A stretch of DNA of 64,000 nt from assembly GCF_010119545.1 (NCBI RefSeq), contig NZ_JAAEAA010000012.1, positions 1 through 64,000 of the forward strand. Direction: 5' to 3'. The position numbers were made by a program, and so were the translations under genes. Under the pieces are notes generated by a model. That model was not told the origin of the DNA and did no database searches. It was given only the letters and a program-made list of their open reading frames with translations. The stretch's first letter is position 1; each line of letters starts with the position of its first letter. Shown here one piece after another: positions 28,975 through 46,314 of this stretch. This DNA comes from Pontibacter fetidus. GTDB lineage: Bacteria; Bacteroidota; Bacteroidia; Cytophagales; Hymenobacteraceae.

Positions 28975-28992
28975 TATCCAAATAGTGCGAAG

Positions 28993-31900
28993 ATGGAAGT
29001 TTTACAGGATGCGGCAACCCTGCTGAAGTTGTTGGAAAATGAGCGTATGGCGCGGCAGGAAGCGGAAAGTTTGGCCAAACAAAAAGACGCCGAAATAGAT
29101 GCCCTGAAGCAAAAGCTCATAACATTACATTTGCCCGGCACGGCTGCAACAACAACATCCCAACCCGAACTGCAGGCAGAATACCCAGATCCGATCATAC
29201 GGGTTGACCAGCAGGGCGATATATTATTTGTGAATGCTGCTGGCCGACAATTATTCGGCAAAATACCGGCTTCTCGAAAACTGGGCTTAAAACGCTTGTT
29301 CTTTAAAAAAGCTACTACCGCCTGGCGCGCTGGCAAACCTGTCACCCTGGAAACACACCTGCTTGGTAAATATTACCTTTTATTTATAGTGCCCCTCTCC
29401 GACAAAGGCTATGTAAATATTTACCTGAACGATATTACCGAACGCAAACAGGCCGAGCAGGCACTACAGGAAAGCCAGAACTTTGTTCGAAACATCGCGC
29501 ATACCATACCCAACATCATTTACATCTACGACCTGGAACAGGACCGTAGCATTTACCTGAACGAACAGATTGAGGCCGTACTGGGCTACACCAAACAGGA
29601 CATTGAAGCAATGGACGGCCATGTGTTTATGTCGCTGTTGCTGCCCGAAGAGTTGCCTAAAATGTACCATCACTTGTACAACATGCCGCAGGCACTGGAT
29701 GGTGAGATACGGCAAATTGAGTATCTGGTACGGAACAAGCACGGCGAAACAATAAACCTGCTCTGCCGCGAAAGTATTTTTAAGCGCAAGGATAACGGCC
29801 AGGTGGTGCAGGTAATTGGCTCTGCCGAAGATGTAACCCAGCTCCGGAATAAGAATAAGGCTTTAGTGGAGCAAAAGGAGTTTTACGAAGCTATACTTAA
29901 TCATATCCCTTCTGATATAGCCGTTTATAACAACCAGCTGCAATACATTTTTGTAAACCCGGTTGCTGTCTCGGACCCGGCGTTGCGCCAGTGGATTATC
30001 GGGAAAACAAATGAGGAATATTGTACCTACCGCAACGTACCTTTCGAGCGTATTGCAAACCGGTCGCATCACCTGCACCTGGCGCATACAAGCAAAAAGT
30101 TTGTTGCCTTTGAAGAGGAAATCATCAATAAGGAAGGCGAGGCATCGTACCATATCCGAAAACTAAACCCCGTAGTAGATGCGCAAGGTGATCTACAGAT
30201 GATCATCGGGCATGGCCTGAATATAACAGACCTGAAGCACGCCCAGCAGGAAATTGTTAAAAGCGAAGCCAAGAACCGTGCTATACTGGCAGCCATACCT
30301 GACCTCATGTTCATCATAAACGAGGACGGCATATACCTCGACATGAAAAACGTGGAGCAGGAACATTTACTGGTTCCTAAAGCCAGGGTTATTGGTGCCC
30401 ACATGCAAGACCTGCTGCCCAAAGAAATATGTGAAAACATTCTGACCCTCGTGCGCAAGGTGATAAGCACCGGTGAGCCTGAACGCACCGAATACGAACT
30501 GGAACTGGAAAGCGGAAAACACTATTATGAGGGCCGTATTATAAAGTATAGCTCAACCGAGGTGCTGGCTATTATACGGGATACTACAGAAGAACGCAAA
30601 GCCACACAGGCGGCTAAGGAACAAAACGAATTTATCCGGTCGGTGATGGATTCCAGCCCGAGTTTGATCTATGTAAAAAACCAGAATGGTGAATTTAAAC
30701 TGGTAAACCAGGAAGTAGCTAACCTTTATGGCAAGCCCATTGAGGAATTACTGAATGTAAGCCCGATTACTGTTGCAAATAATACCGAAGAGGTTGAGAC
30801 CTTTACCCATGACGACAGAATCGTGATTGAGCAACGTCGGGAGGTAGTGTCGGAACAGTGTTTTACAAAACCAAATGGCGAAGTGCTATGGTTTAAAACT
30901 ACCAAACGGCCTTTAATTACCAGCGACGGGCAGGTTAATGTGCTTGGCATCTCTACTGATATAACGGTACAGCGCCTGGCAAGCAAACAGTTAGAAGAAA
31001 GCGAAGAACTGTACCGCTTACTATCTGATAACTCTAAAGATGTGATCAGCCTGCATGAACTTAGCGGGCGCTATATTTTTATTTCAAAAGCCGCGGAAGA
31101 AATGCTAGGCTATGCGGTAACCGAAATTATTGGGAGTAAACCACAGCGCCTGATTCACCCTGATGATTATGAAAACCTGCGGAAAGGGTTTAAAGATGTG
31201 CTGGAATACAAGGCCAACACAAACGTAGAGCACCGCCTGGTTAAAAAAGACGGAAGTATAGTTTGGGCAGAAACGAACCTGAAGCCTGTTTTTGATAGCG
31301 ACGGAAATGTGATCAAGATACAGTCTTCGGCCCGTGATATAACCTTGCGCCGAAAAAATGCCGAGGCCCTGGCTCGCAGCGAAAAAAAATACAGAGACCT
31401 GATAAACTATAGCCAGGCCTACATTTGCGCCCACGACATGCAAGGCAAAGTGCTGTCGGTAAACCCGTATCTGGTTAATACACTTGGCTATACAGAGCAG
31501 GAAATGCTGGGCAAAGACCTTAAGACGTTCTTCCCGGAAGCCCACCGCGAAAACTTCAGTAGCTATATCAATAAATTTAAGGATTCGAACAATGTTGAGG
31601 GCGTGTTATGCATCCTGAACAAAGAACAACAGGAACGATACCTTTACTACCAGAACTATAAAGTGGAGGAGCCCGGATTGGAGCCCTACATTATAGGCCT
31701 GGCACAGGACATAACGGACCGATTGCAAACAGAAAAAGAGTTAAAAAATGCCAAAGAAGCTGCTGAAGAGTCTGCAAAGGTAAAAGAGAATTTTCTGGCT
31801 AACATGAGCCACGAGATACGCACCCCAATGAATGGTATTTTAGGGATGGCCGGCCTGCTCCAGAAAACCAACCTCGATGCATCGCAAAATAACTACCTTA

Positions 31901-33291
31901 AAATTATCAAGCAGTCAGCGGAGAACCTGCTGGTTGTGATAAACGACATACTGGATGTAGCCAAAATTGAAGCCGGAAAGCTTGACCTTGAGCAGATACC
32001 GTTTAACCTTGGCGATGCTGTTATAAACACGTTCAATACGCTGAACTATAAGGCCGAGGAAAAAGAGATCGCTTACCGGATGGAAAATGAGCACGTTAAC
32101 TGCCCGGTTGTTATCGGAGACCCCTACCGCCTGAACCAGGTATTGCTAAACCTGCTGAACAATGCTATTAAATTTACAGACGAAGGAAGTGTGCTGCTGC
32201 ATTGCCAGGTGCTGCATGAAGATGAGCAGGAACTGACCGTTGAGTTTGCTATATCTGATACGGGCATAGGTATACCGGAAGGTAAAAAGGACATTATATT
32301 TGAAGGCTTTACCCAGGCTTATTCCAGCATAACCCGTAAGTATGGCGGCTCCGGACTAGGGCTTAGCATCTGTAAAAACCTGGTAGAAATGCAGGGCGGC
32401 CGTATTTGGGCAGAAAGTGAAGAAGGAAAAGGCAGTACATTTAAATTTATACTTACTTACCCCAAAGCAGCTCAAAACCAACAATCAGAAACTACCAAAA
32501 CAGCGGTTGATTTTGACAGCCTGGAGCCATTGCATGTGCTTGTTGCCGAAGATAACGAGATTAATATCTTCCTGGCCAAATCGATACTGGAAGGCTGGCA
32601 GTTTAAGGTAGATGTAGCTCAGAATGGTCAGGAAGCTGTAACTATGGCAGAAACCGGTAAGTATGATATTATACTGATGGATATACAGATGCCTGAAATG
32701 AGCGGGATTGATGCCACCTTACATTTACGCGCTAACGCTAACCAGGAAATTGCCCGTGTACCTATCATAGCGCTTACAGCCAATGCCTTTAAAGGAGATG
32801 CAGAAAAGTACCTGAGCGTTGGCATGAATGACTATATCTCGAAACCGTTTGAGGAAGAAACCCTCTATATAAAGTTGGCTACGTTACTGCCACACAAAAT
32901 CAAACCTAAACAAAAGACAACTATAGCAGAAGATAAACCAGCGCAACCTGCAACACCACTTTACGACCTTGAAATGCTACAGAAGCTTGGACGCGGTAAC
33001 CAGGAATTTATAAACCGTACGATACACCTGTTCATTCAAACTGCACCTCAAACTATAGCTACCTTGCAAACTTGCGCCCAGGCCGAGGATTGGGAAGGCG
33101 TAAGTGCGGCAGCTCATAAGCTTAAATCTACGATAGATACCTTACGGATTACACAGCTAAAGCAGGTAGTGAGAGAACTGGAAGATCAGGAAGCTTGTGT
33201 TACCAACCCGACAAAAGCTAAGGAATTGGTCAACTTTACTTCGGATCATATAAACCAGGTAATTAAAGAGATAGCCGTTGATATTAAGTAA
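28993..33291 (+). CDS. Multi-PAS hybrid histidine kinase with receiver and Hpt domains
   Basis: A large cytosolic sensor of 1432 residues without clear membrane spans. A short coiled coil (about 5-45) leads into seven PAS units; starts visible include [46 protein letters not shown] and [15 protein letters not shown]. HisKA holds His940 ([14 protein letters not shown]), and the HATPase has [21 protein letters not shown] and [16 protein letters not shown] receiver follows with Asp1230 (LMDIQMPEM), then Hpt with His1375 (AAHKLKST). It is thus a complete phosphorelay module; the final acceptor is outside this protein. The soluble multi-PAS sensor suggests internal redox or metabolite sensing. Confidence 0.94.
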
Positions 33292-34251: not shown

Positions 34252-34617
34252 TTATTCGTAAGAGGCGGCAGTAAGCATGGCATGTTTGCTCATTTGCTGT
34301 ATCAGGTATAAACGTAAGGTGGCATCTACCTGCAACATTTGCTGTAACTCTTCCTTCGAAATACAGATAACCGTAGCCGGCTCTTTTACAACTACTGTCT
34401 GACTATAGGTTTCATGCATCAGGTCTGGTAAACCCAGCAGTGTACCGGCCTGTACGGTGCGTGGCAGCCCACCAACCGGGGTTACTTGTGCGCTACCACT
34501 TATCAGGTAATATAACTCCTGGTTAGGGTTGCCAGCTGCAAACAAACAGGTATCGGGCGCAACCAACGTATGGTTTCCTTTAACCTGTCCCTCCTCAATC
34601 ATCTTCCTGAATAACAT
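34252..34617 (-). CDS. Stand-alone cyclic-nucleotide-binding-like (cupin) protein
   Basis: A 121-residue protein consisting of one Crp-type beta-roll: LFAAGNPNQELYYLISGSAQV, then AGTLLGLPDLM and a C-terminal helix. No DNA-binding domain follows. The phosphate-binding cassette is not clearly canonical, so cyclic nucleotide binding is uncertain. I chose the ATG at 34617; the frame extends to a TTG at 34665. It follows the universal stress gene by 60 bp on the same strand and should share its Fnr-type promoter. A signalling or partner-binding role is inferred. Confidence 0.75.
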   Translation of the reverse strand: MLFRKMIEEGQVKGNHTLVAPDTCLFAAGNPNQELYYLISGSAQVTPVGGLPRTVQAGTLLGLPDLMHETYSQTVVVKEPATVICISKEELQQMLQVDATLRLYLIQQMSKHAMLTAASYE

Positions 34618-34677
34618 AATCGGGTTATAAAATGTCTGCAAAAATAACGTATATGGCCGAAGCAAAAATAATTGTTA

Positions 34678-35589
34678 CTAATTTACAAGGACTAATTCCT
34701 TGTTAAATTCCGGCTGAGCTGCTTGTTTGCTTCTGCAGTTATCGCAGCAACCAGAACAGGGTTTGCTTTTAACTTGCCTGAAAGTAACCAGCGGAATCTG
34801 GGTATGGTATGCCTGAGTTTTTACATATGTGTTACTGAAAAGCCGCTGCATCAGGTAATTGTCCTGGGTTGCCAGTATAAGTAAGTCGGCCTCCTGCTGC
34901 TCAGCAAAATCACTGATACCCTCCAGCATGTCCTCTTCTTCCAGTAATTTATAGGTTACATCGTACCCTTCCAGCAACAGCTGTACTTCGCGCATGGCCA
35001 TCTTTATTTTTGCACGTGCATTACGTTCAGCGGCACTATACAGCTGTACCATAGTTAGTTGCGCATTTACCTGCTTCACAAAATCTGCAATGCGCTTCAG
35101 CACACTTACATCTCGGTCGGTAAAATCTGTAGCAAAAACGAGGTGGTTTAATTTCTGAAATTGCACTTGCAGAGGCAAAGTCAGTACCGGGCAACTCAGC
35201 AGTTCCATTATAGCTGATGCGTGGTTGGCTAGCTGCTGCTCCCCTTCCGGCACCGGGCAGGCTTCCATCACCACCATATCCACGTAGTAATCCTGAACTA
35301 TAGTTTTTATACAGTTACGAAGCGTACCTGGCCTAACAAGACATTCAAACCGGGTAAAACCTGTCCCTGTCTCATGGTGCCGTAAAAGTACCCGCTCGCC
35401 AAATGTACGAAGTGCCTGAATCAGCCTGTTCTGTTGCGTAAATGTGAGATCGGTGGACTGGGTGGCATGTACCAATAACACTTCTGCGTCTAAAGCTTTT
35501 GCCAGATGACCTGCGTATTTCAGCAGTTTTTCGCTTACCTCATCAAAATTGATTGGTACCAGTATCCGCTTTACCTGATTTGTTTCCAT
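34678..35589 (-). CDS. Tandem universal stress protein with C-terminal cysteine cluster
   Basis: A 303-residue protein of two UspA domains: residues 8-145 (ILVPINFDEVSEKLLKYAGH...VMEACPVPEG) and 150-278 (LVFATDFTDRDVSVLKRIADF...LLILATQDN). Neither half shows a full GxxGx9GS ATP motif by eye. The last 25 residues contain CSGCCDNC, an unusual cysteine-rich tail that could bind metal or sense redox state. Two Fnr-type boxes with a -7-like element precede the gene, which places it with the cco promoters. UspA proteins are known to be induced by Fnr-type regulators in other bacteria. Confidence 0.88.
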   Translation of the reverse strand: METNQVKRILVPINFDEVSEKLLKYAGHLAKALDAEVLLVHATQSTDLTFTQQNRLIQALRTFGERVLLRHHETGTGFTRFECLVRPGTLRNCIKTIVQDYYVDMVVMEACPVPEGEQQLANHASAIMELLSCPVLTLPLQVQFQKLNHLVFATDFTDRDVSVLKRIADFVKQVNAQLTMVQLYSAAERNARAKIKMAMREVQLLLEGYDVTYKLLEEEDMLEGISDFAEQQEADLLILATQDNYLMQRLFSNTYVKTQAYHTQIPLVTFRQVKSKPCSGCCDNCRSKQAAQPEFNKELVLVN

Positions 35590-35612: not shown

Positions 35613-35678
35613 TAAAGTTATAGGTAAGGCTATGGCTATGCAGTGAGTATGGTCACTGACGGAAATGACTTATGTCAG
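35613..35678 (-). promoter_or_regulatory. Tandem Fnr-type promoter of usp
   Basis: Two TGA-N6-TCA boxes: 35643-35656 (GTGAG-TATG-GTCAC) and 35665-35678 (ATGAC-TTAT-GTCAG). Centres are 22 bp apart. A -7-like element (TAACTTTA on the minus strand, 35613-35620) is centred 33 bp from the proximal box. An activator would therefore sit at about -41 and -63. The proximal box is the least perfect of the set. The usp ATG is at 35589. Confidence 0.7.
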
Positions 35679-35708
35679 TTTAGAATAGGGTAAACTATAG
35701 TTACCTTC

Positions 35709-35744
35709 TAAAAAAAATAAGCTGTAAGGTTGGCTTACAGCTTA
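35709..35744 (-). terminator. Intrinsic terminator after the DsbD_2-like gene
   Basis: An 11-bp perfect stem (TAAGCTGTAAG and complement, 35718-35744), loop GTTGG, with a T-rich tract following on the minus strand. It lies 5 bp beyond the gene's stop codon. Confidence 0.8.
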
Positions 35745-35748
35745 TAGT

Positions 35749-36480
35749 TTATTTTGCTCTTGCTACGGCAGGTTTACTGCAGCAACTCATTTCGGTTTTA
35801 TGCGCCTGGGTTTCGATAACCTTTGGACTAAGATACGGTATGCCCAAACCAAGGCCACGAACTATAAATAGTATTGCCAGCGTCATGCCAATATAAGGCA
35901 CTGCCCTGTTAAACATACCACGCATTTTTAAGCTGATGAGTTTGCCGGATAAAGAAACTATAAACATCAGCGGGAATGTGCCTAAGCCAAATAAAGCCAT
36001 GTACAGCATGGCCCCTCCTACGCCCGGCGCGCTTATAGCTCCGGCAAGGGCAATGTATACAAAACCACAAGGAAGTAAGCCGTTTAGCAGGCCAACCATA
36101 AACAACGAACCCAACGAGTTTTTCTGGAAATAATATCCCAGTTTTCGTCTTACCCAGGCCATCAGTTTATCGGCACCTAAAACACTGGCAGACTTACCTT
36201 TAACAGCAGCCGGTAAAACCAACAATAGAAGTATAAGTATACCAGAAACGATAGATACTGTTTGCTGCAACCCAGCCATTTGCAATGACTCGCCGAATAC
36301 GCCAGCCAAAGCACCAAGCAAAGCGTAAGTAACTATACGCCCGCTATTGTACAGGAGCCGGCCGGCATAGTATCGCCAGCCGGTGCTCCCGACAAAGGGT
36401 AGCGCCATTGCTATAGGGCCGCACATCCCGACACAATGGAAACTACCTACTAACCCGAAAATAAAACCTGCCCAGATCAT
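35749..36480 (-). CDS. DsbD_2/TauE-type membrane protein of the cbb3 locus
   Basis: A polytopic inner-membrane protein of 243 residues (start at ATG 36480, 3 bp after the ccoH stop; an extension to 36555 overlaps ccoH and is unlikely). FGLVGSFHCVGMCGPIAMALPF holds a His and Cys in the first span, and later spans include SLFMVGLLNGLLPCGFVYIAL. These HxxxMCGP and LPCG motifs mark the DsbD_2/UreH-like family often called sulfite exporter in databases. In cbb3 loci such proteins are usually thought to serve copper supply or thiol redox during assembly. The C-terminus ends with a CC pair. Confidence 0.85.
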   Translation of the reverse strand: MIWAGFIFGLVGSFHCVGMCGPIAMALPFVGSTGWRYYAGRLLYNSGRIVTYALLGALAGVFGESLQMAGLQQTVSIVSGILILLLLVLPAAVKGKSASVLGADKLMAWVRRKLGYYFQKNSLGSLFMVGLLNGLLPCGFVYIALAGAISAPGVGGAMLYMALFGLGTFPLMFIVSLSGKLISLKMRGMFNRAVPYIGMTLAILFIVRGLGLGIPYLSPKVIETQAHKTEMSCCSKPAVARAK

Positions 36481-36482
36481 GG

Positions 36483-36953
36483 CTATTTTATTTGAATGGT
36501 TTTTTCTGAATAATATGCCTCTTTGCCATCGCTGAAGTCCACGCGCACTTTCCATACGCCGCTTTCCAGGTCTTGTACTTCCAGCAACTGGCTCTGGTCG
36601 CGGCCTAACTGCAACGGTAACTTCTTATCCATCGCATCGTCAGACGGCCGGAAAAGCGTAATGGTACCAGCCAGGCTTTTTTCTTTATAAGTAGCAGGCA
36701 GTTGCAGCAGTATAGATTTTGCTTCTTGGTTATAGTTCAGCATCACATCGCCTAAGGCCTGCGTGCGTTTTACCTTTTCAATCTGGTCCTGGTACTTAAT
36801 TTCCTGCTCGTAATAATCTTTGCTTACCAGGTCCACATCCTGGTTCATGGCTTTGTACACAAACATGGCAATGTAGGCCATAAAACACACCATCGCCACT
36901 ATAATCATGTAAGGCCAAAGTGTAAAGCTTTTATTTTTATCTGATGATCTCAT
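36483..36953 (-). CDS. ccoH: FixH/CcoH family protein
   Basis: A 156-residue membrane-anchored protein. One span near residues 12-32 (WPYMIIVAMVCFMAYIAMFVY) is followed by DLVSKDYYEQEIKYQDQI, the family signature, and a periplasmic beta-sandwich ending SDGKEAYYSEKTIQIK. FixH/CcoH is needed for assembly or stability of cbb3 oxidase. It lies 51 bp after ccoG and 2 bp before the DsbD_2-like gene, so the three form one operon from the ccoG promoter. Confidence 0.9.
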   Translation of the reverse strand: MRSSDKNKSFTLWPYMIIVAMVCFMAYIAMFVYKAMNQDVDLVSKDYYEQEIKYQDQIEKVKRTQALGDVMLNYNQEAKSILLQLPATYKEKSLAGTITLFRPSDDAMDKKLPLQLGRDQSQLLEVQDLESGVWKVRVDFSDGKEAYYSEKTIQIK

Positions 36954-37004
36954 CTGTATAATCTCTATAGTATGTCCGGTAAAGACACGTTTTAACTTAC
37001 TGAC

Positions 37005-38408
37005 TTAGTTGGCTGGCCCTAAAAACTTAGTATCGGTTTTCGTGATCAGCTCGTTGCCATTGTACACTCCTATCTCTATTTCGGAGTTCATGCCTGTCAG
37101 GTCCTGCTTCGCTATCTCTGCAAAGAAAACTGCTTCCACAATGCCTTGTGCCGGAAGTACAAGCTCGTTTCCTACTACTTTTATAGTTCCTTCCTTGTCC
37201 AGCAGCTTTAGGGTAAGCGGCATGTCGTGGTTGGTTTTATTGATAACAGAAATGTTGTACAGGTTCTTAATATGCCCCTGCTCTGTTTTCTGATAGAGTT
37301 GTCCCGGGGTGCGCAGTATAGTGGCTTCGGCCTCGTCGCGGGTTAGCAATAAGGTGGTAAGTGCGGTCAGCAATATAGCCAGCACCGCCGTGTAGCCCAT
37401 TACCCGGTTAGTGAAGAACGTCCATTTGGTTCCTTTCTCAATCGCTTCTTCAGACTCATAACGGATCAAACCTTCCGGCTTATCGATCATGCGCATGATG
37501 TCGTTGCAGGCATCAATACAGGCAGTACAGTTAATGCACTCTAATTGCTGCGCGCCGTTACGGATATCTATACCTGTCGGACATACCTGCACGCACTGGT
37601 TACAATCTATACAATCGCCTTCGGTGCGCTCCTGCCCTTTTCTGAGTTTGCCGCGCGGTTCGCCTCGACCATAGTCATAAGCCACTACCACGGTTTTTTT
37701 ATCCTGCATTACACCCTGCAAACGGCCATACGGACAAACTATAGTACAAACCTGCTCCCGGAAAGAAGCAAATACCCAGTAAAACACACCCGTAAATGCC
37801 AGCAACGACCCGAAACCGATCATGTGGTTAAAAGGCCCTTCGGTAACAACTTTCTGCAGTTCGTCTATGCCAATTACATAAGCCAGAAACAGGTTAGAGA
37901 TAACGAACGAGATTAGCAGGAAAATAGCAGTTTTAGAACCCTTTTTAAGGATCTTTTCTGCATTCCAGGGCATCTTATCCAGCGCTTTCTGTTTGGTATA
38001 GTCTCCTTCAATGGCATATTCTATTCTGCGGAATACCATCTCCAGGAAAATAGTTTGCGGGCAAACCCAGCCGCAGAAAATACGCCCGTACACCACCGTA
38101 AAAAGGATGATGAACACGACCAGCGTGAGGAATGCAATAACAAGTATAAAAAAGTCCTGGGGCCAGAACAGCACCCCGAAAATAACAAACTTTCGCTCTA
38201 TAATATTAAACATGAGCAGCGGCAAGCCATTTACCTTTATAAACGGACCAGCAAATAACAAGGCCAGCAGTAAATAGCTGACATATTTGCGATAGTTGTA
38301 TAGTTTACCTTTCGGCTTGCGCGGGTACACCCAAACGCGTTTACCCTGTTCATCTACTGTCGAGATGTGGTCCCGAAATTCATCGGTTGGTTTTATTTTA
38401 GTTGCCAT
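37005..38408 (-). CDS. ccoG: Cytochrome c oxidase accessory protein CcoG/FixG
   Basis: A 467-residue polyferredoxin. Five or so spans (for example YVSYLLLALLFAGPFIKV) surround FCGWVCPQTIF, and the cytosolic part has two [4Fe-4S] motifs: CIDCNQCVQVCP and CINCTACIDAC. A C-terminal immunoglobulin-like domain (FixG_C, about 365-467) ends the protein. CcoG reduces Cu(II) for delivery to the CuB site of cbb3 in characterised bacteria. It heads the ccoG-ccoH-DsbD_2 operon and has its own tandem Fnr-type promoter. Confidence 0.96.
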   Translation of the reverse strand: MATKIKPTDEFRDHISTVDEQGKRVWVYPRKPKGKLYNYRKYVSYLLLALLFAGPFIKVNGLPLLMFNIIERKFVIFGVLFWPQDFFILVIAFLTLVVFIILFTVVYGRIFCGWVCPQTIFLEMVFRRIEYAIEGDYTKQKALDKMPWNAEKILKKGSKTAIFLLISFVISNLFLAYVIGIDELQKVVTEGPFNHMIGFGSLLAFTGVFYWVFASFREQVCTIVCPYGRLQGVMQDKKTVVVAYDYGRGEPRGKLRKGQERTEGDCIDCNQCVQVCPTGIDIRNGAQQLECINCTACIDACNDIMRMIDKPEGLIRYESEEAIEKGTKWTFFTNRVMGYTAVLAILLTALTTLLLTRDEAEATILRTPGQLYQKTEQGHIKNLYNISVINKTNHDMPLTLKLLDKEGTIKVVGNELVLPAQGIVEAVFFAEIAKQDLTGMNSEIEIGVYNGNELITKTDTKFLGPAN

Positions 38409-38495
38409 GGCAGTGGTAATTTGTGCGGAGATTAGTCCTGCCTGATTAAATGAAAGTATAAAATCGGTACTCTGAAATCGTAAAATCTACTGTTG

Positions 38496-38561
38496 CAAAT
38501 TTCCTTAATTGGACCTCCCAAAAAGATGACCTACGTCATAGAATGAGGTGATTGTGGTCAG
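38496..38561 (-). promoter_or_regulatory. Tandem Fnr-type promoter of ccoG
   Basis: Boxes at 38526-38539 (ATGAC-CTAC-GTCAT, a perfect palindrome) and 38548-38561 (GTGAT-TGTG-GTCAG), with centres 22 bp apart. GAAATTTG on the minus strand at 38496-38503 is the -7-like element, centred 33 bp from the proximal box. The same GAAATTTG occurs at the same place before ccoNO. The ccoG ATG is at 38408. Confidence 0.8.
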
Positions 38562-38610
38562 TTATAGGTACTATAGTTGCCCACTGAAGAGCTATAGTTA
38601 GAGCAGGTAC

Positions 38611-38651
38611 AAAATAAAAGTTGCAGGCACTATAGTTTAGCACCTGCAACT
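38611..38651 (-). terminator. Terminator after ccoP with ACTATAGT in its loop
   Basis: A 9-bp stem AGTTGCAGG/CCTGCAACT (38619-38651) with a 15-nt loop, followed on the minus strand by a T-rich tract (TTTTATTTT). The loop contains ACTATAGT, the core of the iterated palindrome. Confidence 0.75.
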
Positions 38652-38677
38652 CTCATCTCGTTTTCAAAAATTATACG

Positions 38678-39886
38678 CTACTCTTTTTCGCCCTGCGGTT
38701 CTTTGGCATTAGCGGGGTTAGATCCTTTTAAGCTCAGGATGTAGCTGGATACCTCCAGGATCTGATCTTTGGTTAGTTTGCCCTGCCATGGTACCATGCC
38801 TTTGGCTGGCACGCCATACTTTACCGTCTTAAACACCTCATTCACATCACCACCGTGCAGCCAGTACTCATCCGTTAAATTAGGTCCCACTGTACCTTGT
38901 CCTTCCGGGCCGTGGCATGCAGCGCAGTTCGTACTGAAAATCTTTTTACCGGACTCCAGTGCTGTTGCATCTGTCAATGGTTTGTAGTCTGTTACGGCAT
39001 TCGGGTCGTCTGGGGTGGCAGCTGCAATTAAAGCGGCCTGTTCCATTTCCATTTCATACTCTTCAGCCTGTAACGATCCTGTCTTAAACACATGGTAGTG
39101 CAGCATATACCCGACAGCAAAAACAATACTTACATAGAACATCATCTTCCACCAAGGCGGTAGGTCATTATCATATTCCTGTATACCATCAAAGTCGTGG
39201 TGCGAATGGATCTCATTTTTATCTTTACCCGTTACAAGCGTTGCATCGCCACGCAGCAGGAAGTATACCCGACCAGCAAACGAATTACGAAACTCCTCCT
39301 CGTAAATGGTATCTCCCATCATCGGGATGAACAGACGGAACATTAGCACAACTACCAGCACCATTAGCAGTATGATGATTGCTGCCAGGGCAAATGTAAA
39401 GTGCAACACTGGCGGCAGGTCCATAAAGGCGACATCCTGTGTTTCGGCAGTAGCTGCTGTAGCTGTAGAGTCGGTGGCCGCTGTGGCTGGCGCTTCGGCT
39501 ACGGCAGCTGGTTTTTCACTTTCCTGTTGTATAAAGGCAATTACATTTTTGATATCATCATCAGACAAGGATGTACCAAAAGCCGGCATCGGCACTTTAT
39601 TAAATTTCTCGAACAGGGCCACGGCATCTTTGTCACCGGCTTGCACCAGTTCCTGCGAGTTTTTAATGAACTTCACCAGCCACTCTTCGCCGCGACGTTT
39701 GTGCGCATCTTTAAGAGCCGGGCCAACCACATCAGCATCTATACTATGGCAGGCAGTACAGTTACCTTCAAATATGGCTTTACCCGCTACAGCATCCTGC
39801 GCTTGTACCGCTGGCGTGCCGATCAGAAGCAAACCAGCCACCAGGGCTAAGCTGCTTTTACCTAGTATTTTCTTTACAGAGATCAT
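38678..39886 (-). CDS. ccoP: cbb3 oxidase subunit CcoP with one heme-c domain on each side of the anchor
   Basis: A 402-residue membrane cytochrome. A signal peptide (about 1-30, PAVQAQ) is followed by a first cytochrome c domain with CTACH at 43-47 and a distal Met region (KVPMPAFG). An Ala/Thr-rich linker leads to a span (about 160-185), a FixP-N segment with a second span (about 245-268), and a second cytochrome c domain with CAACH at 321-325 and axial GMVPW. Proteobacterial CcoP instead carries two heme-c domains after its anchor. It overlaps ccoQ by 4 bp. Electrons should pass from the periplasmic hemes to CcoNO. Confidence 0.93.
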   Translation of the reverse strand: MISVKKILGKSSLALVAGLLLIGTPAVQAQDAVAGKAIFEGNCTACHSIDADVVGPALKDAHKRRGEEWLVKFIKNSQELVQAGDKDAVALFEKFNKVPMPAFGTSLSDDDIKNVIAFIQQESEKPAAVAEAPATAATDSTATAATAETQDVAFMDLPPVLHFTFALAAIIILLMVLVVVLMFRLFIPMMGDTIYEEEFRNSFAGRVYFLLRGDATLVTGKDKNEIHSHHDFDGIQEYDNDLPPWWKMMFYVSIVFAVGYMLHYHVFKTGSLQAEEYEMEMEQAALIAAATPDDPNAVTDYKPLTDATALESGKKIFSTNCAACHGPEGQGTVGPNLTDEYWLHGGDVNEVFKTVKYGVPAKGMVPWQGKLTKDQILEVSSYILSLKGSNPANAKEPQGEKE

Positions 39887-40077
39887 TGTCTTACGCTATC
39901 AAAAGTGGTGTCTTGGCTTTCATCTTCGCATGCAATGGCGCTCATCGTTTGTGCATACTTTTTATCCATCAGGGCTACATACACTACCAGGCCCAGGAAA
40001 AACACAAAGAAGATGCTGAACGAGATAAGCGGATATATTTCGATGCCGTCTATGGCTTGCAAAACATTCTTATACAT
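39883..40077 (-). CDS. ccoQ: cbb3 oxidase subunit CcoQ-like
   Basis: A 64-residue protein with one span (about 16-36, ISFSIFFVFFLGLVVYVAL) followed by a short acidic tail. Size, single span and position between ccoNO and ccoP match CcoQ/FixQ, which stabilises the CcoNOP complex. Its stop overlaps the ccoP start by 4 bp. A gap of 100 bp separates it from ccoNO. Confidence 0.85.
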   Translation of the reverse strand: MYKNVLQAIDGIEIYPLISFSIFFVFFLGLVVYVALMDKKYAQTMSAIACEDESQDTTFDSVRQ

Positions 40078-40177
40078 TTTCTTATACTTTTATGACTTCA
40101 AGATTCCGTGACAAAGGACAAAAGACTTCTTATCTCCAGGACTTCTTTCTTTTGCCTTTTGCCACGGTGCCATTGGT

Positions 40178-42370
40178 CTATTTAACTTCCTCCGTTTTCA
40201 CTTTAATGTCTGTACCCAGACGTTGCAGGTAAGCGATCAGGGCTACAATTTCCTTCTCAGGCTTCACTTCTATTCCTTCTTTGGCAAGGTCAGCTGAGAT
40301 GCCTTTTGCCTGCTTCATCAACTCTTCGTTAGAATTAGCGATGTAGTCATCCTCGTAAGGCACGCCCAGTTGCTTCAGCACACGCAGTTTATCCTGTGTG
40401 GTGCTCTGGTTTATTTCCTGCTCAAACAGCCAAGGGTAAGATGGCATAATAGAGCCTGGCGACATAGATGTTGGGTCCATCATGTGGTGGTAGTGCCATG
40501 AGTTAGGATACTTACCCCCCACTCTGTGCAGATCCGGACCGGTACGTTTAGAACCCCACAGGAAGTTGTGATCATACACAAATTCACCAGCTTTAGAGTA
40601 TTCGCCGTAACGCTCTGTTTCTGATCTGAAAGGACGAACCATTTGTGTGTGGCAGTTAACGCAACCCTCTTTAATGTACAGGTCACGACCCTGCAGTTCC
40701 AGCGAAGTATAAGGTTTTACACTGGCTATAGTTGGCACATTAGACTTGATAACGAAGGCAGGTATAAACTCAACCAGACCACCGATAAGTATAGCTACTG
40801 TAGCGAAAATTGCCATTTGTGTAGGACGCTTCTCAATCCAGGAGTGCCAGTGACCTGCGTTGTTTGATACAGTTGGTACAATTACCGGCGCTTCAGTTCT
40901 TTCATTAGCCTCCAGCGTACCAGACTTAACTGTTTTAACCAGGTTGTACACCATCAGGAACACGCCACTCAGGTATAGCACACCACCAATACCACGCATG
41001 TAGTACATTGGCACAATTTGCAATACAGTCTCCAGGAAGTTAGAGTACTGTAGCGTACCTTCTGCTGTGAACTGTTTCCACATTAAGCCTTGGGTAAAGC
41101 CTGCCCAGTACATTGGTATCGCATAGAAAAGTATACCCAGCGTACCTAACCAGAAGTGTGCATTAGCAAGTTTCTTAGAGTATAGTTGAGTTTTGTAAAG
41201 ACGTGGGAACAACCAGTATAGCATGGCAAAAGTCAGAAAGCCGTTCCAGCCAAGGGCACCTACGTGTACGTGTGCTACAATCCAGTCAGTAAAGTGCGCA
41301 ATAGCATTTACGTTCTTTAAAGAAAGCATTGGGCCTTCGAAGGTAGCCATACCGTAAGCTGTGATGGCAACCACCATAAACTTCAGGATAGGCTCTTCGC
41401 GTACTTTATCCCAGGCGCCACGCAGTGTAAGCAAACCGTTGATCATACCACCCCAGCTCGGAGCAAGCAGCATTACAGAGAAAACCACACCCAGTGACTG
41501 TGCCCAGTCTGGCAGCGACGTATAAAGTAAGTGGTGCGGACCAGCCCAGATATAGATGAAGATCAGCGACCAGAAGTGGATAATGGATAATCTGTAAGAG
41601 TAAACCGGACGGTTAGCAGCTTTAGGCAGGAAGTAGTACATCAGGCCCAGGAACGGCGTTGTTAAGAAGAACGCAACCGCATTGTGGCCATACCACCACT
41701 GTACCAGCGCATCCTGCACACCTGCATAACCAGAGTAGCTCTTGAACAGGTTAACCGGCATTTCATAAGAGTTTACGATGTGTAGCACGGCTACTGTCAG
41801 GAAGGTGGCGATGTAGAACCAGATGGCAACGTACATGTGCTTTTCGCGACGCCTGGCAAGTGTACCAAACATGTTCCAGCCAAATACAACCCAGATCAGC
41901 GTAATTGCAATGTCAATCGGCCACTCCAGCTCGGCATACTCTTTTGAGGTTGTCATACCCAGCGGAAGCGTGATAACGGCAGAAACGATAATCAGCTGCC
42001 AGCCCCAGAAGTTGATCTTGCTGAGCAGATCGGAATACATACGGGTTTTGCAAAGGCGCTGCAGCGAGTAATAAACACCCATAAAGATGGCATTACCCAC
42101 AAAGGCAAAGATCACCGCATTGGTGTGCAACGGTCTTACGCGACCAAAAGTGGTATACTGTGTACCCATGTTCATGTCAGGGTTTGCCAGCTGGAAGGCG
42201 ATGATCACCCCGATCAGCATACCGGCAATGCCCCAGAACACGGTGGCTATACCAAAATCCCGAACGATCTTATTATCATAAAAGAACGTGTCGGTCACTC
42301 CCCGGTCCGTACCCTTTGGTACAACCCTGTCAGGCGCATTTTCTAAGACTTCAGCTACATTAGTTGACAT
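40178..42370 (-). CDS. ccoNO: Fused cbb3 oxidase catalytic subunit and monoheme subunit (CcoNO)
   Basis: A 730-residue fusion. Residues about 30-480 are CcoN, with 12 spans, heme/CuB histidines in spans (LHTNAVIFAFVGNAIF, WWYGHNAVAFFLTT, GPHHLLYTSLPDW, HVHVGALGWNGF). The C-terminal 230 residues are CcoO: a span, then the heme-c site CVNCHTQMVRPF and axial-Met segment (PSYPWLF). The ccoN-ccoO fusion is usual in Bacteroidota. It reduces O2 with high affinity and pumps protons. A tandem Fnr-type promoter lies upstream; ccoQ and ccoP follow. Confidence 0.97.
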   Translation of the reverse strand: MSTNVAEVLENAPDRVVPKGTDRGVTDTFFYDNKIVRDFGIATVFWGIAGMLIGVIIAFQLANPDMNMGTQYTTFGRVRPLHTNAVIFAFVGNAIFMGVYYSLQRLCKTRMYSDLLSKINFWGWQLIIVSAVITLPLGMTTSKEYAELEWPIDIAITLIWVVFGWNMFGTLARRREKHMYVAIWFYIATFLTVAVLHIVNSYEMPVNLFKSYSGYAGVQDALVQWWYGHNAVAFFLTTPFLGLMYYFLPKAANRPVYSYRLSIIHFWSLIFIYIWAGPHHLLYTSLPDWAQSLGVVFSVMLLAPSWGGMINGLLTLRGAWDKVREEPILKFMVVAITAYGMATFEGPMLSLKNVNAIAHFTDWIVAHVHVGALGWNGFLTFAMLYWLFPRLYKTQLYSKKLANAHFWLGTLGILFYAIPMYWAGFTQGLMWKQFTAEGTLQYSNFLETVLQIVPMYYMRGIGGVLYLSGVFLMVYNLVKTVKSGTLEANERTEAPVIVPTVSNNAGHWHSWIEKRPTQMAIFATVAILIGGLVEFIPAFVIKSNVPTIASVKPYTSLELQGRDLYIKEGCVNCHTQMVRPFRSETERYGEYSKAGEFVYDHNFLWGSKRTGPDLHRVGGKYPNSWHYHHMMDPTSMSPGSIMPSYPWLFEQEINQSTTQDKLRVLKQLGVPYEDDYIANSNEELMKQAKGISADLAKEGIEVKPEKEIVALIAYLQRLGTDIKVKTEEVK

Positions 42371-42438
42371 GTGCGGTGTCCTCCGTTTTGTTTAAGTGTT
42401 GTATTTGTTTTGATTTATAGTTTTATGAACTATGGCTA

Positions 42439-42504
42439 CAAATTTCCGGAAGTGAACCCCGGAAAAAGATGATTAATATCATTCCGGTTAATGATTGATA
42501 TCAG
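42439..42504 (-). promoter_or_regulatory. Tandem Fnr-type promoter of ccoNOQP
   Basis: Boxes at 42469-42482 (ATGAT-TAAT-ATCAT, perfect palindrome) and 42491-42504 (ATGAT-TGAT-ATCAG), centres 22 bp apart. The minus-strand -7-like element GAAATTTG is at 42439-42446, centred 33 bp from the proximal box. The ccoNO ATG is at 42370, so the leader would be about 65 nt. Confidence 0.82.
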
Positions 42505-42508
42505 CCAA

Positions 42509-42552
42509 GACAGTTAGAGAAGTAAGAGTTGAGGAGTTAGAGAGAATACAGA
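42509..42552. repeat. Purine-rich GAGTTAGA-type repeat
   Basis: Repeats of GTTAGAGA, GAGTTG and GAGTTAGAGAGA just upstream of the ccoNO promoter and downstream of ccoS. The same string recurs at 58280-58312 and 60196-60222. Confidence 0.6.
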
Positions 42553-42622
42553 ATTATTCTTCTCTGCTATATGTTGCAGTATTCATTAGCCTCAACCAGC
42601 TCTCTATTTTTAGAATAAATTG

Positions 42623-42808
42623 CTAAGCAGCGCTTTCTCCTTTCGGTTTCTTACTGCTCTTTGCAGGTACCTCGTTATCGAAGAGCATGCGTACTGCCGG
42701 CGTATAGTCGTCGTCGTACTGGCCTGAGCGCACTGCCCACAGGAAAGCTCCCAGAAAAGCCCCTGCCACCGTTACACTCACCGCGATCATTAAAAAGATG
42801 ATGTACAT
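42623..42808 (-). CDS. ccoS: cbb3 oxidase assembly protein CcoS
   Basis: A 61-residue protein with one N-terminal span (MYIIFLMIAVSVTVAGAFLG) and the conserved FLWAVRSGQYDD motif just after it, which is diagnostic for CcoS. CcoS is required for insertion of heme and copper into CcoN. It lies 42 bp after ccoI on the same strand and should be co-transcribed with it. Confidence 0.95.
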   Translation of the reverse strand: MYIIFLMIAVSVTVAGAFLGAFLWAVRSGQYDDDYTPAVRMLFDNEVPAKSSKKPKGESAA

Positions 42809-42850
42809 TTTATTTAATTATTAATTAATAATTATGAATTAGTAATTTGA

Positions 42851-45256
42851 TCAAAGGCCTGCCCGTTTCGCGGCAATGTTTACTGCTATAGTTGCAAACA
42901 CGATCACGCTGAGTGAGCTGATAGGCATAAGTATAGCCGAAACTATAGGTGAGAAAAGCCCCTGCACAGCCAGCGTTAACCCGATCACGTTATAAACCAG
43001 CGACACAGCGAAGGTGGCCAGTATAATTGTCATAGTGGTTTTGGAGAACTTCAGAAACTTGCTAAGCTTGTCGAAAGCTGTAGCATCCAGGATAGCATCG
43101 CAGGATGGTGAGAAGTTGGTAATGCTGTTTGTGAGCGCAATACCTGCATCGCTCTGTCGCAGGGCGCCGGCATCATTCAGGCCATCGCCCACCATCATTA
43201 CCTGGTGGTGCTGATTCTTAAGCTGCTGTATGTATTCCAGTTTCTGCACCGGGCTCTGGCTAAAATTCAGTTCGGCTTTCCTGCCCAATAGCTCTTTCAG
43301 CCTTGCTTCCTCGTGGTTATTGTCCCCGGACAGTACAGCCAGTTTTTTATCGCTCAGGTCTTTCAGTATGTCTTTCAGTCCCTGGCGGTAAACATTGTAA
43401 AACGTATAGTAGCCAAGTATCACACCGTTTACTGAGACATACACCGATGTTTTAAGTGTATCTTTAACTGCATTTACATTAACACCTATATATGAAGCAG
43501 ATCCGACCCGAACTATAGCCCCATTTACTTCACCAACCAGCCCTTTCCCAGTAAACTCCTGAAAGTTCTGCACAGCTATCGTTTCACCTTTAAGGCTCTG
43601 AAAAATGCGTTGGCTAAGCGGGTGTGTAGAGTGGCTGAGAACAGACCTGATGCTTTGCTCTTCTGCTGCCGTAAGTGCTTTACCACTATAGTTTAGCTCT
43701 GCGGCACTCGGCTCGGTCAGCGTACCGGTCTTATCAAAAACTACGGTATCTATTTTAGCCAGTGTTTCTACTACTGCTGTGTTTTTAAGGTAAAATTTGT
43801 TCTTGCCGAAAATGCGCAAGGTGTGGCCATGCACAAAAGGTGTAGCCAGCGACAGCGCACAAGGGCAGGCAATGATCAGCACTGATATAAAGGCTTTCAT
43901 GGCCATGTCCATATCACGCGGTACCCAGTATATGAGCGCGCCTGCAGCCACTATAAGCGTAATGATGATGAACCATTTGCCAGCAATGTTGGCATACGTA
44001 CTAACACTTTGCTCCTCGTTTTTAGAGAATACACTGTCGTTCCATAGTTGGGTCAAGTAGCCCTGCGATACTTCTTTTACTACTTCCAGTTCTATACTTT
44101 CGCCAACCTGGCGACCACCGGCATAGATCACTTCGCCCATTACCTTCTCAACAGGCTCCGATTCGCCACTCACAAAACTATAGTCGATCATGGCCTGGCC
44201 ACGTAGCAGGATGGCATCGGCAGGTATAAGCTCCTGGTTACGGATACGGATGCGGTCTCCCACTTTCAGGTTACGCACAGCTACAGCTTCTTCCTCACCA
44301 TTCTCTTTAAGCACGGTTACCGATACCGGGAAGTAAGAAGTATAATCCCTGTCGAAAGAAAGGGTATCGTAAGTCTTTTGCTGGAAATATTTACCGATCA
44401 GCATAAAGAACACCAGGCCGGTGAACGAATCGAAGTAGCCTGGGCCGGTACCGGTAGTAACCTGATAAATGCTCACTAAAAACAAAGCCAGCAAACCAGT
44501 AGCAATGGGCAGATCGATGTTAACCATGCGCTGCTTTATACCTTCTAGGGCTGATGTAAAGAAACCCCGTGCACTATAAACAAAAACCGGGATTGCCAGC
44601 AGAAAGCTCAGGTAACCAAAGAAAGATCCAAAAGTACGTTGCAACCCTTCGGTTACGGCCAGGTAATCCGGGAAGGCCAGCAGCATTACATTACCAAAAC
44701 TGAAGGCAGCGACTCCTAACTTATAGATGATGGCGCGGTTTGGCTTGCTTGTCTTTTTGCCGTCCGTATCGGCCAGCGTAATTTCAGGTTCGTAGCCGAT
44801 GCGGGCCAGTAGCGTAACCACCTCGCGCAGGTTCGTTTTCTGATGAAAATAGGTCAGCGATACTTCTTTGCGCAGGAAGTTTACTGTTGATTCTGAAATT
44901 CCCGGATTTAACTTAAACAGGTTCTCGAGCAACCAGATACAAGAGCTGCAGTGCATCTGCGGTGTATAAAACGTAATCTTGCAGATGTTATCATCCTTAA
45001 AACGAATGAGTTGAGCTTCTACACCGGCATCGTCTAGGTATGCAAAGCGAGCCTCTGAAACGGACTTTTTGCCAGATATACCCGGATTTTCTTCCAGGTT
45101 ATAGTAGTTGCAGAGGTTGTTCTCTTCTAAAAGTTCGTAAACAGTTTTGCAGCCGGTGCAGCAGAATGCTTTATCGTCAGCAATAATCAATTCGTCCACG
45201 CAGGAATCCCCGCAGTGGTAGCATGTCTGAACATTGGTTTGGAGTGCGGCTTCCAT
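42851..45256 (-). CDS. ccoI: Copper-translocating P1B ATPase CcoI
   Basis: An 801-residue heavy-metal ATPase. The N-terminus has a cysteine-rich domain (CYHCGDSC...CCTGCKTVYELL) and an HMA domain with MHCSSCIWLLENL. Eight spans follow; the metal site is IACPCALSLATPF, the phosphorylated Asp is in DKTGTLT, and VMMVGDGLNDAGAL is the hinge motif. CcoI supplies copper for the CuB site of cbb3. It is the first gene of the ccoI-ccoS operon with its own tandem Fnr-type promoter. Confidence 0.96.
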   Translation of the reverse strand: MEAALQTNVQTCYHCGDSCVDELIIADDKAFCCTGCKTVYELLEENNLCNYYNLEENPGISGKKSVSEARFAYLDDAGVEAQLIRFKDDNICKITFYTPQMHCSSCIWLLENLFKLNPGISESTVNFLRKEVSLTYFHQKTNLREVVTLLARIGYEPEITLADTDGKKTSKPNRAIIYKLGVAAFSFGNVMLLAFPDYLAVTEGLQRTFGSFFGYLSFLLAIPVFVYSARGFFTSALEGIKQRMVNIDLPIATGLLALFLVSIYQVTTGTGPGYFDSFTGLVFFMLIGKYFQQKTYDTLSFDRDYTSYFPVSVTVLKENGEEEAVAVRNLKVGDRIRIRNQELIPADAILLRGQAMIDYSFVSGESEPVEKVMGEVIYAGGRQVGESIELEVVKEVSQGYLTQLWNDSVFSKNEEQSVSTYANIAGKWFIIITLIVAAGALIYWVPRDMDMAMKAFISVLIIACPCALSLATPFVHGHTLRIFGKNKFYLKNTAVVETLAKIDTVVFDKTGTLTEPSAAELNYSGKALTAAEEQSIRSVLSHSTHPLSQRIFQSLKGETIAVQNFQEFTGKGLVGEVNGAIVRVGSASYIGVNVNAVKDTLKTSVYVSVNGVILGYYTFYNVYRQGLKDILKDLSDKKLAVLSGDNNHEEARLKELLGRKAELNFSQSPVQKLEYIQQLKNQHHQVMMVGDGLNDAGALRQSDAGIALTNSITNFSPSCDAILDATAFDKLSKFLKFSKTTMTIILATFAVSLVYNVIGLTLAVQGLFSPIVSAILMPISSLSVIVFATIAVNIAAKRAGL

Positions 45257-45281
45257 CTCAATTTCTATTTATGGTCTTTTG

Positions 45282-45347
45282 CAAAGGTAGAATGCCGCTC
45301 CTCCTTAAATGATGACGAGTGTCATTTTAAGGGGTGATTGATATCAC
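45282..45347 (-). promoter_or_regulatory. Tandem Fnr-type promoter of ccoIS
   Basis: Boxes at 45312-45325 (ATGAC-GAGT-GTCAT) and 45334-45347 (GTGAT-TGAT-ATCAC), both perfect palindromes with centres 22 bp apart. A full-consensus -7 element TACCTTTG on the minus strand (45282-45289) is centred 33 bp from the proximal box, placing it near -41. The ccoI ATG at 45256 is about 26 bp beyond the -7 element. The rest of the 350-bp gap shows only the fnr terminator. Confidence 0.85.
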
Positions 45348-45606: not shown

Positions 45607-46314
45607 TTAATCGTAAAGGTGGCAGATCTTAAACAATCTTTCCGGGTCAAGTATGGTAATGCTGCTGCCTTTTGTGGTGATAATCTGCTCGTCTTTAAAG
45701 TCAGATAACAGGCGTATGGTTGTTTCTTTTGCTGTACCAACTATAGATGCCAGGTCCTCACGGGAAATTGAGATCGTAAAATTATCTTCTCCGTTCTGCT
45801 GCTGATACGTTTTTTGTAATAATAATAAGGCTTCAGCCAAGCGCTCACGAACCGGCTTATAGGCCATCTGCACCATGCGCTCCTCTGCTTCACCCAAAGC
45901 CCGCGAAAACAGTTTCATCAAGCCACTAGAGAACTCATTGTTCGTCGCTATCAGGTCCAGGAACTGAGATTTCGGAATAAAGCAAACTACAGCATCATCC
46001 AGGGCAACCGCCGAAGCCGAGTAATTGGTATCAGCCATAAGGGCCCTGTAACCTACCACATCGCCGGGTTTAGCCAAGCGAATAATCTGTTCTTTGCCAT
46101 CGCTGCCCATTTTGGTAACCTTTACTTTACCCGAATTTATGCAATGCAAACCTGAAGGGCGCGTACCTTCATGAAAGATAACCTGGCCTTTTTTAAAGGT
46201 AAAGCAAGATTTAGTAGCAGTTACATCTTCTAACTCATTGCCTTTACAGCAGCCCAGCAGCGAGTGCTTCCGGGAAGTGCAGTTCATACAGTCTGGCGCT
46301 GAGAATTTCATCAT
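45607..46314 (-). CDS. Crp/Fnr family regulator with N-terminal cysteine cluster
   Basis: A 235-residue transcription factor, likely the oxygen-responsive regulator of the cco genes. The N-terminus carries Cys9, Cys12, Cys22 and Cys23, a possible [4Fe-4S] site in place of the different spacing of E. coli Fnr. A cNMP-like beta-roll (QVIFHEGTRPSGLHCINSGKVKV) and dimer helix lead to a winged HTH whose recognition helix reads TAKETTIRLLSDF. It keeps the Glu and Arg that in Crp/Fnr proteins contact the TGA core, but has Ile where Fnr has Ser. No Fnr-type box was seen before its own gene. Confidence 0.92.
   Translation of the reverse strand: MMKFSAPDCMNCTSRKHSLLGCCKGNELEDVTATKSCFTFKKGQVIFHEGTRPSGLHCINSGKVKVTKMGSDGKEQIIRLAKPGDVVGYRALMADTNYSASAVALDDAVVCFIPKSQFLDLIATNNEFSSGLMKLFSRALGEAEERMVQMAYKPVRERLAEALLLLQKTYQQQNGEDNFTISISREDLASIVGTAKETTIRLLSDFKDEQIITTKGSSITILDPERLFKICHLYD

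Follow-up and report, generated by a model that had tools for sequence, protein, structure and literature searches.

The closest described counterpart of the arrangement reported here is the FixL-FixJ-FixK cascade of rhizobia, in which a heme-PAS sensor kinase, a receiver domain, and a Crp/Fnr-type output without the FNR-type cysteine set are combined with palindromic Crp/Fnr boxes and with targets that include the cbb3 oxidase and denitrification-type genes. FixJ carries a LuxR-type (GerE) output domain, and FixK is a stand-alone protein without a receiver. FNR possesses three N-terminal cysteines plus one that follows the beta-roll. The features listed for the rhizobial cascade recur in Pontibacter fetidus. 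A 64,000-nucleotide stretch of its genome (contig NZ_JAAEAA010000012.1, positions 1 to 64,000; hereafter, the window) contains a cbb3 oxidase (cco) gene cluster in which the promoters of ccoI, ccoNO, ccoG, and a universal stress protein gene (usp) each carry two Crp/Fnr-type boxes in a fixed tandem arrangement. With moderate confidence, we read these four promoters as part of a low-oxygen regulon in which a receiver-Crp/Fnr fusion protein is the most likely occupant of the tandem class II sites, and an FNR-like protein would serve as a second input. In contrast to the rhizobial system, receiver and Crp/Fnr output are joined here in a single protein of 353 amino acids (aa), and no separate FixJ-to-fixK transcription step is apparent.

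As described for Rhizobium leguminosarum, FnrN and a FixL-type sensor belong to one cascade that works through a shared motif, and plasmid-borne fixNOQP and fixGHIS have a single anaerobox each (PMC7888657), whereas two boxes at 22 bp are found here. FixK2 is described as controlling denitrification (PMC6710368). With the class II promoters of Escherichia coli FNR, the window promoters share a predicted activator box at −41.5 and a similar core palindrome. According to the account of the direct FNR regulon, 89% of peaks hold one site, and 19 sites of the 23 activated promoters with a known start lie at −41.5 ± 4 (PMC3688515); the promoters of the window differ in having a second site at a fixed, predicted position of −63.5, on a −7-type promoter. 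Such promoters have been mapped in Flavobacterium psychrophilum, where the sigmaA box TAnnTTTG is placed at −12 to −5. The same report describes a cbb3 oxidase that is strongly up, and heme-synthesis enzymes that are up, under oxygen limitation, and a term search of its main text found no mention of FNR or Crp (PMC9723704).

Among the open-licence papers in the matches listed, none describes the control of cbb3 oxidase transcription in Bacteroidota, and none reports the fixed tandem geometry or its pairing with a receiver-Crp/Fnr fusion from a FixL cluster; fusions of this type may be mentioned in subscription papers or in surveys of response regulators. A term search of the main text of a paper on CRP/FNR evolution (PMC12531629) was without a match and did not alter the overall conclusions. 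The individual parts are of known kinds. Together they make control of the cbb3 oxidase directly testable: the tandem geometry is fixed, and a regulator, a sensor kinase, and about ten promoters are available as candidates. If our reading is true, the two-step rhizobial cascade has been collapsed into one protein, and a position rule (boxes at −41.5 and −63.5, with the −7 element at 23 nt) would allow comparable regulons to be predicted in this phylum, whose promoters are unusual.

Tandem boxes and promoter geometry

The window contains 22 exact TGA-N6-TCA sites. When all 22 are compared, only four pairs lie less than 40 bp apart, and the spacing of each is exactly 22 bp. These pairs precede usp (35649.5/35671.5), ccoG (38532.5/38554.5), ccoNO (42475.5/42497.5), and ccoI (45318.5/45340.5). 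All eight centres had been given in an earlier note on this DNA and are correct to the base, as is the distance of 33 bp that it reported between the proximal box centre and the centre of a −7 octamer at all four promoters. Boxes and octamer together form one 65-base module, box-N10-box-N23-octamer.

The pairing is well above background in the genome as a whole (4.07 Mb in 49 contigs; labelled G000), as the frequency check proposed with the earlier note makes clear: TGA-N6-TCA pairs at 22 bp occur in nine places, versus none for a reversed control pattern. A scan of spacers from 0 to 30, which registers a pair only if TGAC or TGAT is read first on one strand, placed these nine against nine for the 30 other spacings combined, or about thirty times the per-spacing background; its reversed-pattern controls gave 0+1 and 5+2 matches. 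Where TAnnTTTG follows a single box, a gap of 23 accounts for 10 of 33 matches over 31 gaps, followed by a gap of 24 with five. The total of 33 is not clearly higher than the control value of 28, and the excess is confined to gap 23. A search of the P. fetidus genome with up to 3 mismatches returned 24 matches versus four in the control; several of the three-mismatch matches look like chance, and only those individually named below are used.

Within the genus, 41 genomes were searched and 38 possess ccoNO, counting P. fetidus itself and a genome (G040) whose frame carries one internal stop. At the 37 congeneric ccoNO loci fetched besides our own, seven weaker second matches having been left out, the exact 22-bp tandem is found before ccoNO in 37/37, ccoI in 35/36 (locus L032 is without a ccoI match), ccoG in 33/37, and usp in 8/31, which makes usp the weakest member of the set. 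NAnnTTTG stands at offset 23 past the proximal box in every one of the 105 tandem cco promoters of these loci, a count that excludes usp promoters. Over 50 offsets, it occurs only twice at any other position, both times at 37.

A palindrome this short, with its 22 occurrences in the window, might be expected to form pairs by chance, and duplicated promoters might share a pair through common ancestry. Both explanations are nevertheless very improbable. Chance was rejected as the source of the pairs on the spacing excess with its empty reversed control, the excess at gap 23, and the −7 offset that is fixed in 105/105 promoters. With respect to duplication, the box interiors and the remaining promoter sequence vary between genes.

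Carried over from F. psychrophilum, a member of another family, the −7 position would put the centre of the octamer at −8.5 and those of the proximal and distal boxes at −41.5 and −63.5, respectively, values that are a transfer rather than a measurement. What the promoters share with sigmaA promoters of Bacteroidota is the NAnnTTTG octamer, assigned in this manner to −12 to −5 (PMC9723704). They differ from them in two respects. First, the octamers of ccoG and ccoNO start with G or C. Second, an extra TCTTTT-like block directly follows the proximal box at −35 to −30, and its conservation in the alignment of tandem cco promoters is high (T−35, 100%; C−34, 97%; T−33, 84%; T−32, 100%; T−31, 98%; T−30, 94%). 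The usp promoter of the window is without this third element. The interpretation in the earlier note stands in so far as it concerns a conserved tandem Crp/Fnr-type architecture, with boxes at a predicted −41.5 and −63.5, combined with a −7 element of the Bacteroidota kind. The architecture is real at all four promoters and extends beyond them. In two of the additional tandem promoters (G000:C19:44361 and G000:C48:37700), the −7 position is occupied by TACCTTGC and TACATTGC, respectively, which fit the TAnnTTGY motif (SM5) of F. psychrophilum and not TAnnTTTG (PMC9723704).

A wider view comes from a phylum sample of 296 genomes, 202 of which have a ccoNO match. From 79 of these genomes, 80 cco loci were chosen among the matches listed for spread over genera, a choice that omitted most low-scoring places and, for some genera, additional members. 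Among box-to-box distances of 60 bp or less upstream of ccoI, ccoNO, and ccoG, 22 bp occurs 25 times and 23 bp three times, with every other distance seen at most twice. Promoters were classed on the 500 bp upstream of ccoI and ccoNO only, with at least 4/6 matches to TAnnTTTG taken as a −7 element. By this measure, 17 loci have a tandem with the −7 element at 23 nt, 18 have a single box with the −7 element at 23 nt (some of which may be chance at this threshold), 28 have a box only, and 17 have none. Many of the single-box loci belong to family f20, presumably Flavobacteriaceae. Outside the genus, none of the 78 loci with a ccoG match has a tandem at ccoG. In one locus (L083 of G034), the pairs at ccoI and ccoNO are spaced by 23 rather than 22 bp, and the −7 element is still 23 nt from the proximal box.

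Candidate regulators of the tandem sites

The fusion protein is encoded on a different contig from the cco cluster (C19:48017-49075; L151:8018-9079). Its 353 residues comprise a receiver domain (REC, 4-116), a cyclic nucleotide monophosphate (cNMP)-binding domain (161-247), and a Crp-type helix-turn-helix (HTH) domain (HTH_Crp_2, 279-350), and its closest matches are in Pontibacter, then Rufibacter, Adhaeribacter, and others. An alignment of 64 fusions was assembled from our own and the 63 of 80 named loci that passed a frame filter. In all 64, receiver residues E8, D9, D52, T82, and K104 are invariant, as expected of a FixJ-type receiver, and phosphotransfer to this domain is predicted. The only cysteine in the P. 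fetidus protein, C51, belongs to the receiver, leaving a Crp/Fnr fold that lacks the FNR cysteine cluster, as in FixK. Since its output consists of cNMP_binding plus HTH_Crp_2 and is not of the LuxR type, the fusion is not classed as FixJ and would only work like FixJ. Nor, judging from its domains, is it classed as FixK, because REC occupies residues 4-116. Among the best 60 of 70 matches to solved chains, none spans both the receiver and the Crp/Fnr part; each covers one part. C51 adjoins the phospho-Asp and is likewise invariant in 64/64 fusions; a redox role for it is conceivable.

The surroundings of the fusion gene supply a candidate sensor. The gene order is a 513-aa FixL-like kinase, a single receiver protein, a receiver-kinase, the fusion, and hemA, and it is kept in the five other congeners examined (G001, G004, G008, G012, and G024). 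The kinase possesses two FixL-type PAS domains, HisKA, and HATPase_c. Its second PAS domain matches the FixL heme domain (1dp6) at 1e-36, including the MPEP..S.HD segment, which is present in both PAS domains. A heme-PAS-type domain with this segment, joined to a histidine kinase module, is shared with FixL; heme binding and oxygen-regulated autophosphorylation are predicted. A full FixL-like kinase is found near the fusion in 56 of the 80 named loci, with two copies of the segment in 48 and one in eight. In G034, the more distant fusion is adjoined by another kind of PAS kinase.

Within the genus, a full-length fusion is present in 39 of 41 genomes, namely all 38 with ccoNO plus G007. The remaining two are G016, with no fusion, no ccoNO, and no pairs, and G022, with a 139-aa fusion relic that contains one stop (L166, 5100-5516), no ccoNO, and one pair; the latter looks like decay together with the oxidase. 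Fourteen order-level outgroups divide in the same fashion. Five with a relative of ~354 aa (G026, G028, G033, G034, and G038) hold 6, 4, 5, 3, and 2 pairs, respectively, and the nine without it hold zero. Full length was checked in G026, G033, and G034, and by frame length only in G028 and G038, where the pairs are doubtful (control 2 in G028). In our own class, 43 fusion-positive genomes (197 Mb) have 158 pairs, or 0.80 per Mb, with 1 in the control, versus 19 pairs, or 0.16 per Mb, with 10 in the control, for 30 fusion-negative genomes (119 Mb; Mann-Whitney p = 5e-6, uncorrected for shared ancestry). This test took in 73 of the 296 phylum genomes; for the other 223, no fusion is listed and most have between 0 and 3 pairs, G324 reaching 7. 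A tandem at ccoI or ccoNO is found at 13 of 29 phylum-sample loci with the fusion and at 4 of 51 without it (p = 3e-4, again uncorrected for shared ancestry). Of the 38 fusion-positive genomes in this sample that have ccoNO, 16 carry the two genes no more than 25 kb apart.

The earlier note had pointed to another protein as the regulator to examine, the 235-aa product of the gene at 45607-46314. This protein has a Crp/Fnr fold with an HTH, and Cys 9, 12, 23, 58, and 111 are invariant in 22/22 aligned orthologues. C111 aligns with the beta-roll cysteine of FNR (VCxIP), giving the three N-terminal cysteines and one beta-roll cysteine of FNR, which may hold an oxygen-labile 4Fe-4S cluster; the N-terminal spacing, CX2CX10C, is unlike that of the FNR compared. 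Every match in an NCBIfam search was below its cut-off, and because the score against the Fnr model (NF008365) is 99 bits versus a cut-off of 228, the protein is classed as FNR-like rather than Fnr sensu stricto. It is encoded in 22 of the 41 genus genomes. Where it is present, the tandem is intact at ccoNO, ccoI, and ccoG in all 21 fetched loci; where it is absent, the tandem is found at 16/16 ccoNO, 14/15 ccoI, and 12/16 ccoG promoters. Since all 16 congeners without the short FNR keep the ccoNO pair, it is dispensable for maintaining the sites, and a key role for it is not supported: as a necessary partner, the protein was rejected. It may still be relevant, because the few tandem losses in the genus (four at ccoG and one at ccoI) fall only in genomes without it.

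It could be argued that the FNR-like protein is nonetheless the main regulator of the cco promoters and that the fusion serves other promoters. The gene is directly upstream of ccoI, its product has Cys 9, 12, 23, and 111 in an FNR-like set, the tandem losses coincide with its absence, and in two genomes of the phylum sample (G326 and G204) the boxes are in tandem and a short FNR is encoded in the cco stretch, with no fusion detected. We consider this unlikely, in view of its absence from 16 of 37 congeners that all keep the ccoNO pair, and of five of the 14 order-level outgroups (G027, G030, G032, G035, and G037) that have short FNR-like matches only and zero pairs. By these distributions, the fusion tracks the sites better than the short FNR does, and the latter is probably not the main regulator.

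Several observations weigh against the fusion as the regulator. For four of the 17 tandem loci of the phylum sample, no fusion was detected in the genome (G326, G324, G204, and G071); in G324 and G071, neither a short FNR nor a fusion is found in the fetched cco stretch, and G324 has as many as 7 pairs. At most 7 fusion candidates were scored per genome, and some of these absences may be missed copies. Conversely, a 22-bp tandem at ccoI or ccoNO is missing from 16 of the 29 fusion-positive loci, and members of family f20 with the fusion mostly have a single box, 15 positive genomes holding 12 pairs and 14 negative genomes two. The presence of the fusion is not by itself enough to dictate tandem sites. 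In G007, whose assembly is 87% complete, the fusion is present and ccoNO gave no match, the association statistics ignore phylogeny, and the separate contigs of fusion and cco cluster in P. fetidus count on the same side.

A further alternative puts fusion and FNR on an equal footing, with each occupying one box or with one handing over to the other as oxygen falls. The recognition helices of the two proteins, KETVIR in the fusion and KETTIR in the 235-aa protein, are very similar, and rhizobial FixK and FnrN are described as sharing one anaerobox motif and forming a cascade (PMC7888657). Maintaining two boxes does not require two proteins, however, because the paired arrangement stays intact in congeners that lack the short FNR, and this alternative strikes us as more doubtful still than control by the FNR-like protein.

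Under the preferred reading, that of the fusion acting on both boxes, two Crp/Fnr-type dimers would occupy adjacent boxes separated by two helical turns, centred near −41.5 and −63.5 in a Bacteroidota sigmaA promoter. Adjoining the −33 region, the proximal dimer would act as a class II activator. The distal dimer, on the same helix face two turns upstream, would contribute cooperative binding or a second contact with polymerase. The co-encoded FixL-like heme-PAS kinase would activate the fusion by phosphorylation, such that FixJ and FixK would in effect be united in one polypeptide and a FixL-type signal would pass straight to a Crp/Fnr output. Where present, the 235-aa FNR-like protein could add a second, near-anoxic input or threshold on the same boxes. 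More tentatively, and with less than an even chance in our estimate, much of Bacteroidia may use a one-protein FixJ-FixK for its low-oxygen response, in which a heme-PAS kinase phosphorylates the fusion, the receivers couple two adjacent dimers, and the box spacing reads out phosphorylation-dependent tetramer formation. This coupling by the receiver domains would be the boldest step in the scheme.

Further promoters with the arrangement

Outside the window, exact tandem pairs precede several additional genes of P. fetidus, among which the names nirK, norC, and norB are readings from domains and sequence. One pair lies before a nirK-like gene for a multicopper nitrite reductase-like protein with a cytochrome c domain (C47:67947). 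A second lies before a ric-like gene (ScdA_N plus hemerythrin, C48:30577), the other side of the pair facing a class II ribonucleotide reductase gene. A third lies ahead of a norC-like gene for a cytochrome c, after which comes a norB-like gene of the COX1 family (C48:37700). Others precede the gene for a 630-aa protein that matches no Pfam family at 1e-5, which is divergent from the FixL-like cluster (C19:44361; L151:2428-4320, reverse strand), and a gene for a 125-aa protein (C48:4623).

Imperfect versions of the pair are found at hemA (named from Pfam; C19:49327), with the distal box one base off, at a nitric oxide reductase gene (NorB_cytochrome_c-like, C48:15246), with the distal box two bases off, and at a cytochrome c gene (C48:47838), with the proximal box one base off in each half-site. 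The hemA case is a recurrent one. The gene is present in 48 of the 80 named loci around the fusion, and in 48/48 it has an exact box with NAnnTTTG at 23 nt. An exact pair occurs in 0/48, and the distal position matches 5/6 core bases in 35 and 4/6 in seven. From its sequence, the hemA promoter can be described as near-tandem. Together, the nirK-like, norC-like, ric-like, and hemA targets suggest a low-oxygen or denitrification regulon, and the set would fit an activator of that kind.

Single boxes with the same −7 distance were also encountered. Two of these, each with TACCTTTG at 23 nt, precede a second usp-like gene (G000:C5:124963, L157) and a cytochrome c assembly gene (Cytochrom_C_asm; G000:C13:65816, L158), and are likely single-box members of the same geometry. 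In a sulfur cluster (G000:C47:40629-44072, L152), three promoters have one box with CTGT after it (TGACnnnnnTCACTGT-like), and TAnnTTTG stands at a distance of exactly 23 nt. These precede genes that read as two TauE/SafE-like transporters and a metallo-beta-lactamase/rhodanese-like protein. The geometry is the same and the flank different, perhaps reflecting another Crp/Fnr paralogue.

Features of the window

The boxes, −7 elements, and genes discussed above are collected in Table 1.

Table 1. Promoter elements and genes of the cco cluster in the window; promoter positions relative to transcription starts are predicted.
Feature	Sequence	Position	Strand	Remark
ccoI promoter, distal box	TGATATCAATCA	45335..45346	−	Predicted −63.5; tandem in 35/36 congeneric loci with a ccoI match
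ccoI promoter, proximal box	TGACACTCGTCA	45313..45324	−	Predicted −41.5
ccoI −7 element	TACCTTTG	45282..45289	−	Same offset in 35/35 tandem ccoI promoters
ccoNO promoter, distal box	TGATATCAATCA	42492..42503	−	Tandem in 37/37 congeneric loci
ccoNO promoter, proximal box	TGATATTAATCA	42470..42481	−	
ccoNO −7 element	GAAATTTG	42439..42446	−	Same offset in 37/37 tandem ccoNO promoters
ccoG promoter, distal box	TGACCACAATCA	38549..38560	−	Tandem in 33/37 congeneric loci
ccoG promoter, proximal box	TGACGTAGGTCA	38527..38538	−	
ccoG −7 element	GAAATTTG	38496..38503	−	Same offset in 33/33 tandem ccoG promoters
usp promoter, distal box	TGACATAAGTCA	35666..35677	−	Tandem in 8/31 congeneric loci with a usp match
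usp promoter, proximal box	TGACCATACTCA	35644..35655	−	
usp −7 element	TAACTTTA	35613..35620	−	
FNR-like regulator, 235 aa, secondary candidate		45607..46314	−	PF00027 (cNMP-binding) and PF13545 (Crp HTH)
ccoI, copper-transporting P-type ATPase		42851..45256	−	Pfam E1-E2_ATPase, ATPase-cat_bd, HMA
ccoNO, cbb3 oxidase subunits I and II fused		40178..42370	−	Pfam COX1 and FixO
ccoP, cytochrome c subunit of cbb3 oxidase		38678..39886	−	Pfam FixP_N, Cytochrome_CBB3
ccoG (FixG)		37005..38408	−	Pfam Fer4_18, FixG_C
ccoH (FixH)		36483..36953	−	Pfam FixH
usp, universal stress protein		34678..35589	−	Pfam Usp

Two further genes are located toward the usp end of the cluster. Adjoining usp on the reverse strand (34252-34665) is a gene for a 137-aa protein with a cNMP-binding domain, in which an HTH was not detected. 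On the forward strand, a 1439-aa open reading frame (28972-33291) resembles a multi-PAS hybrid kinase, as judged by reading.

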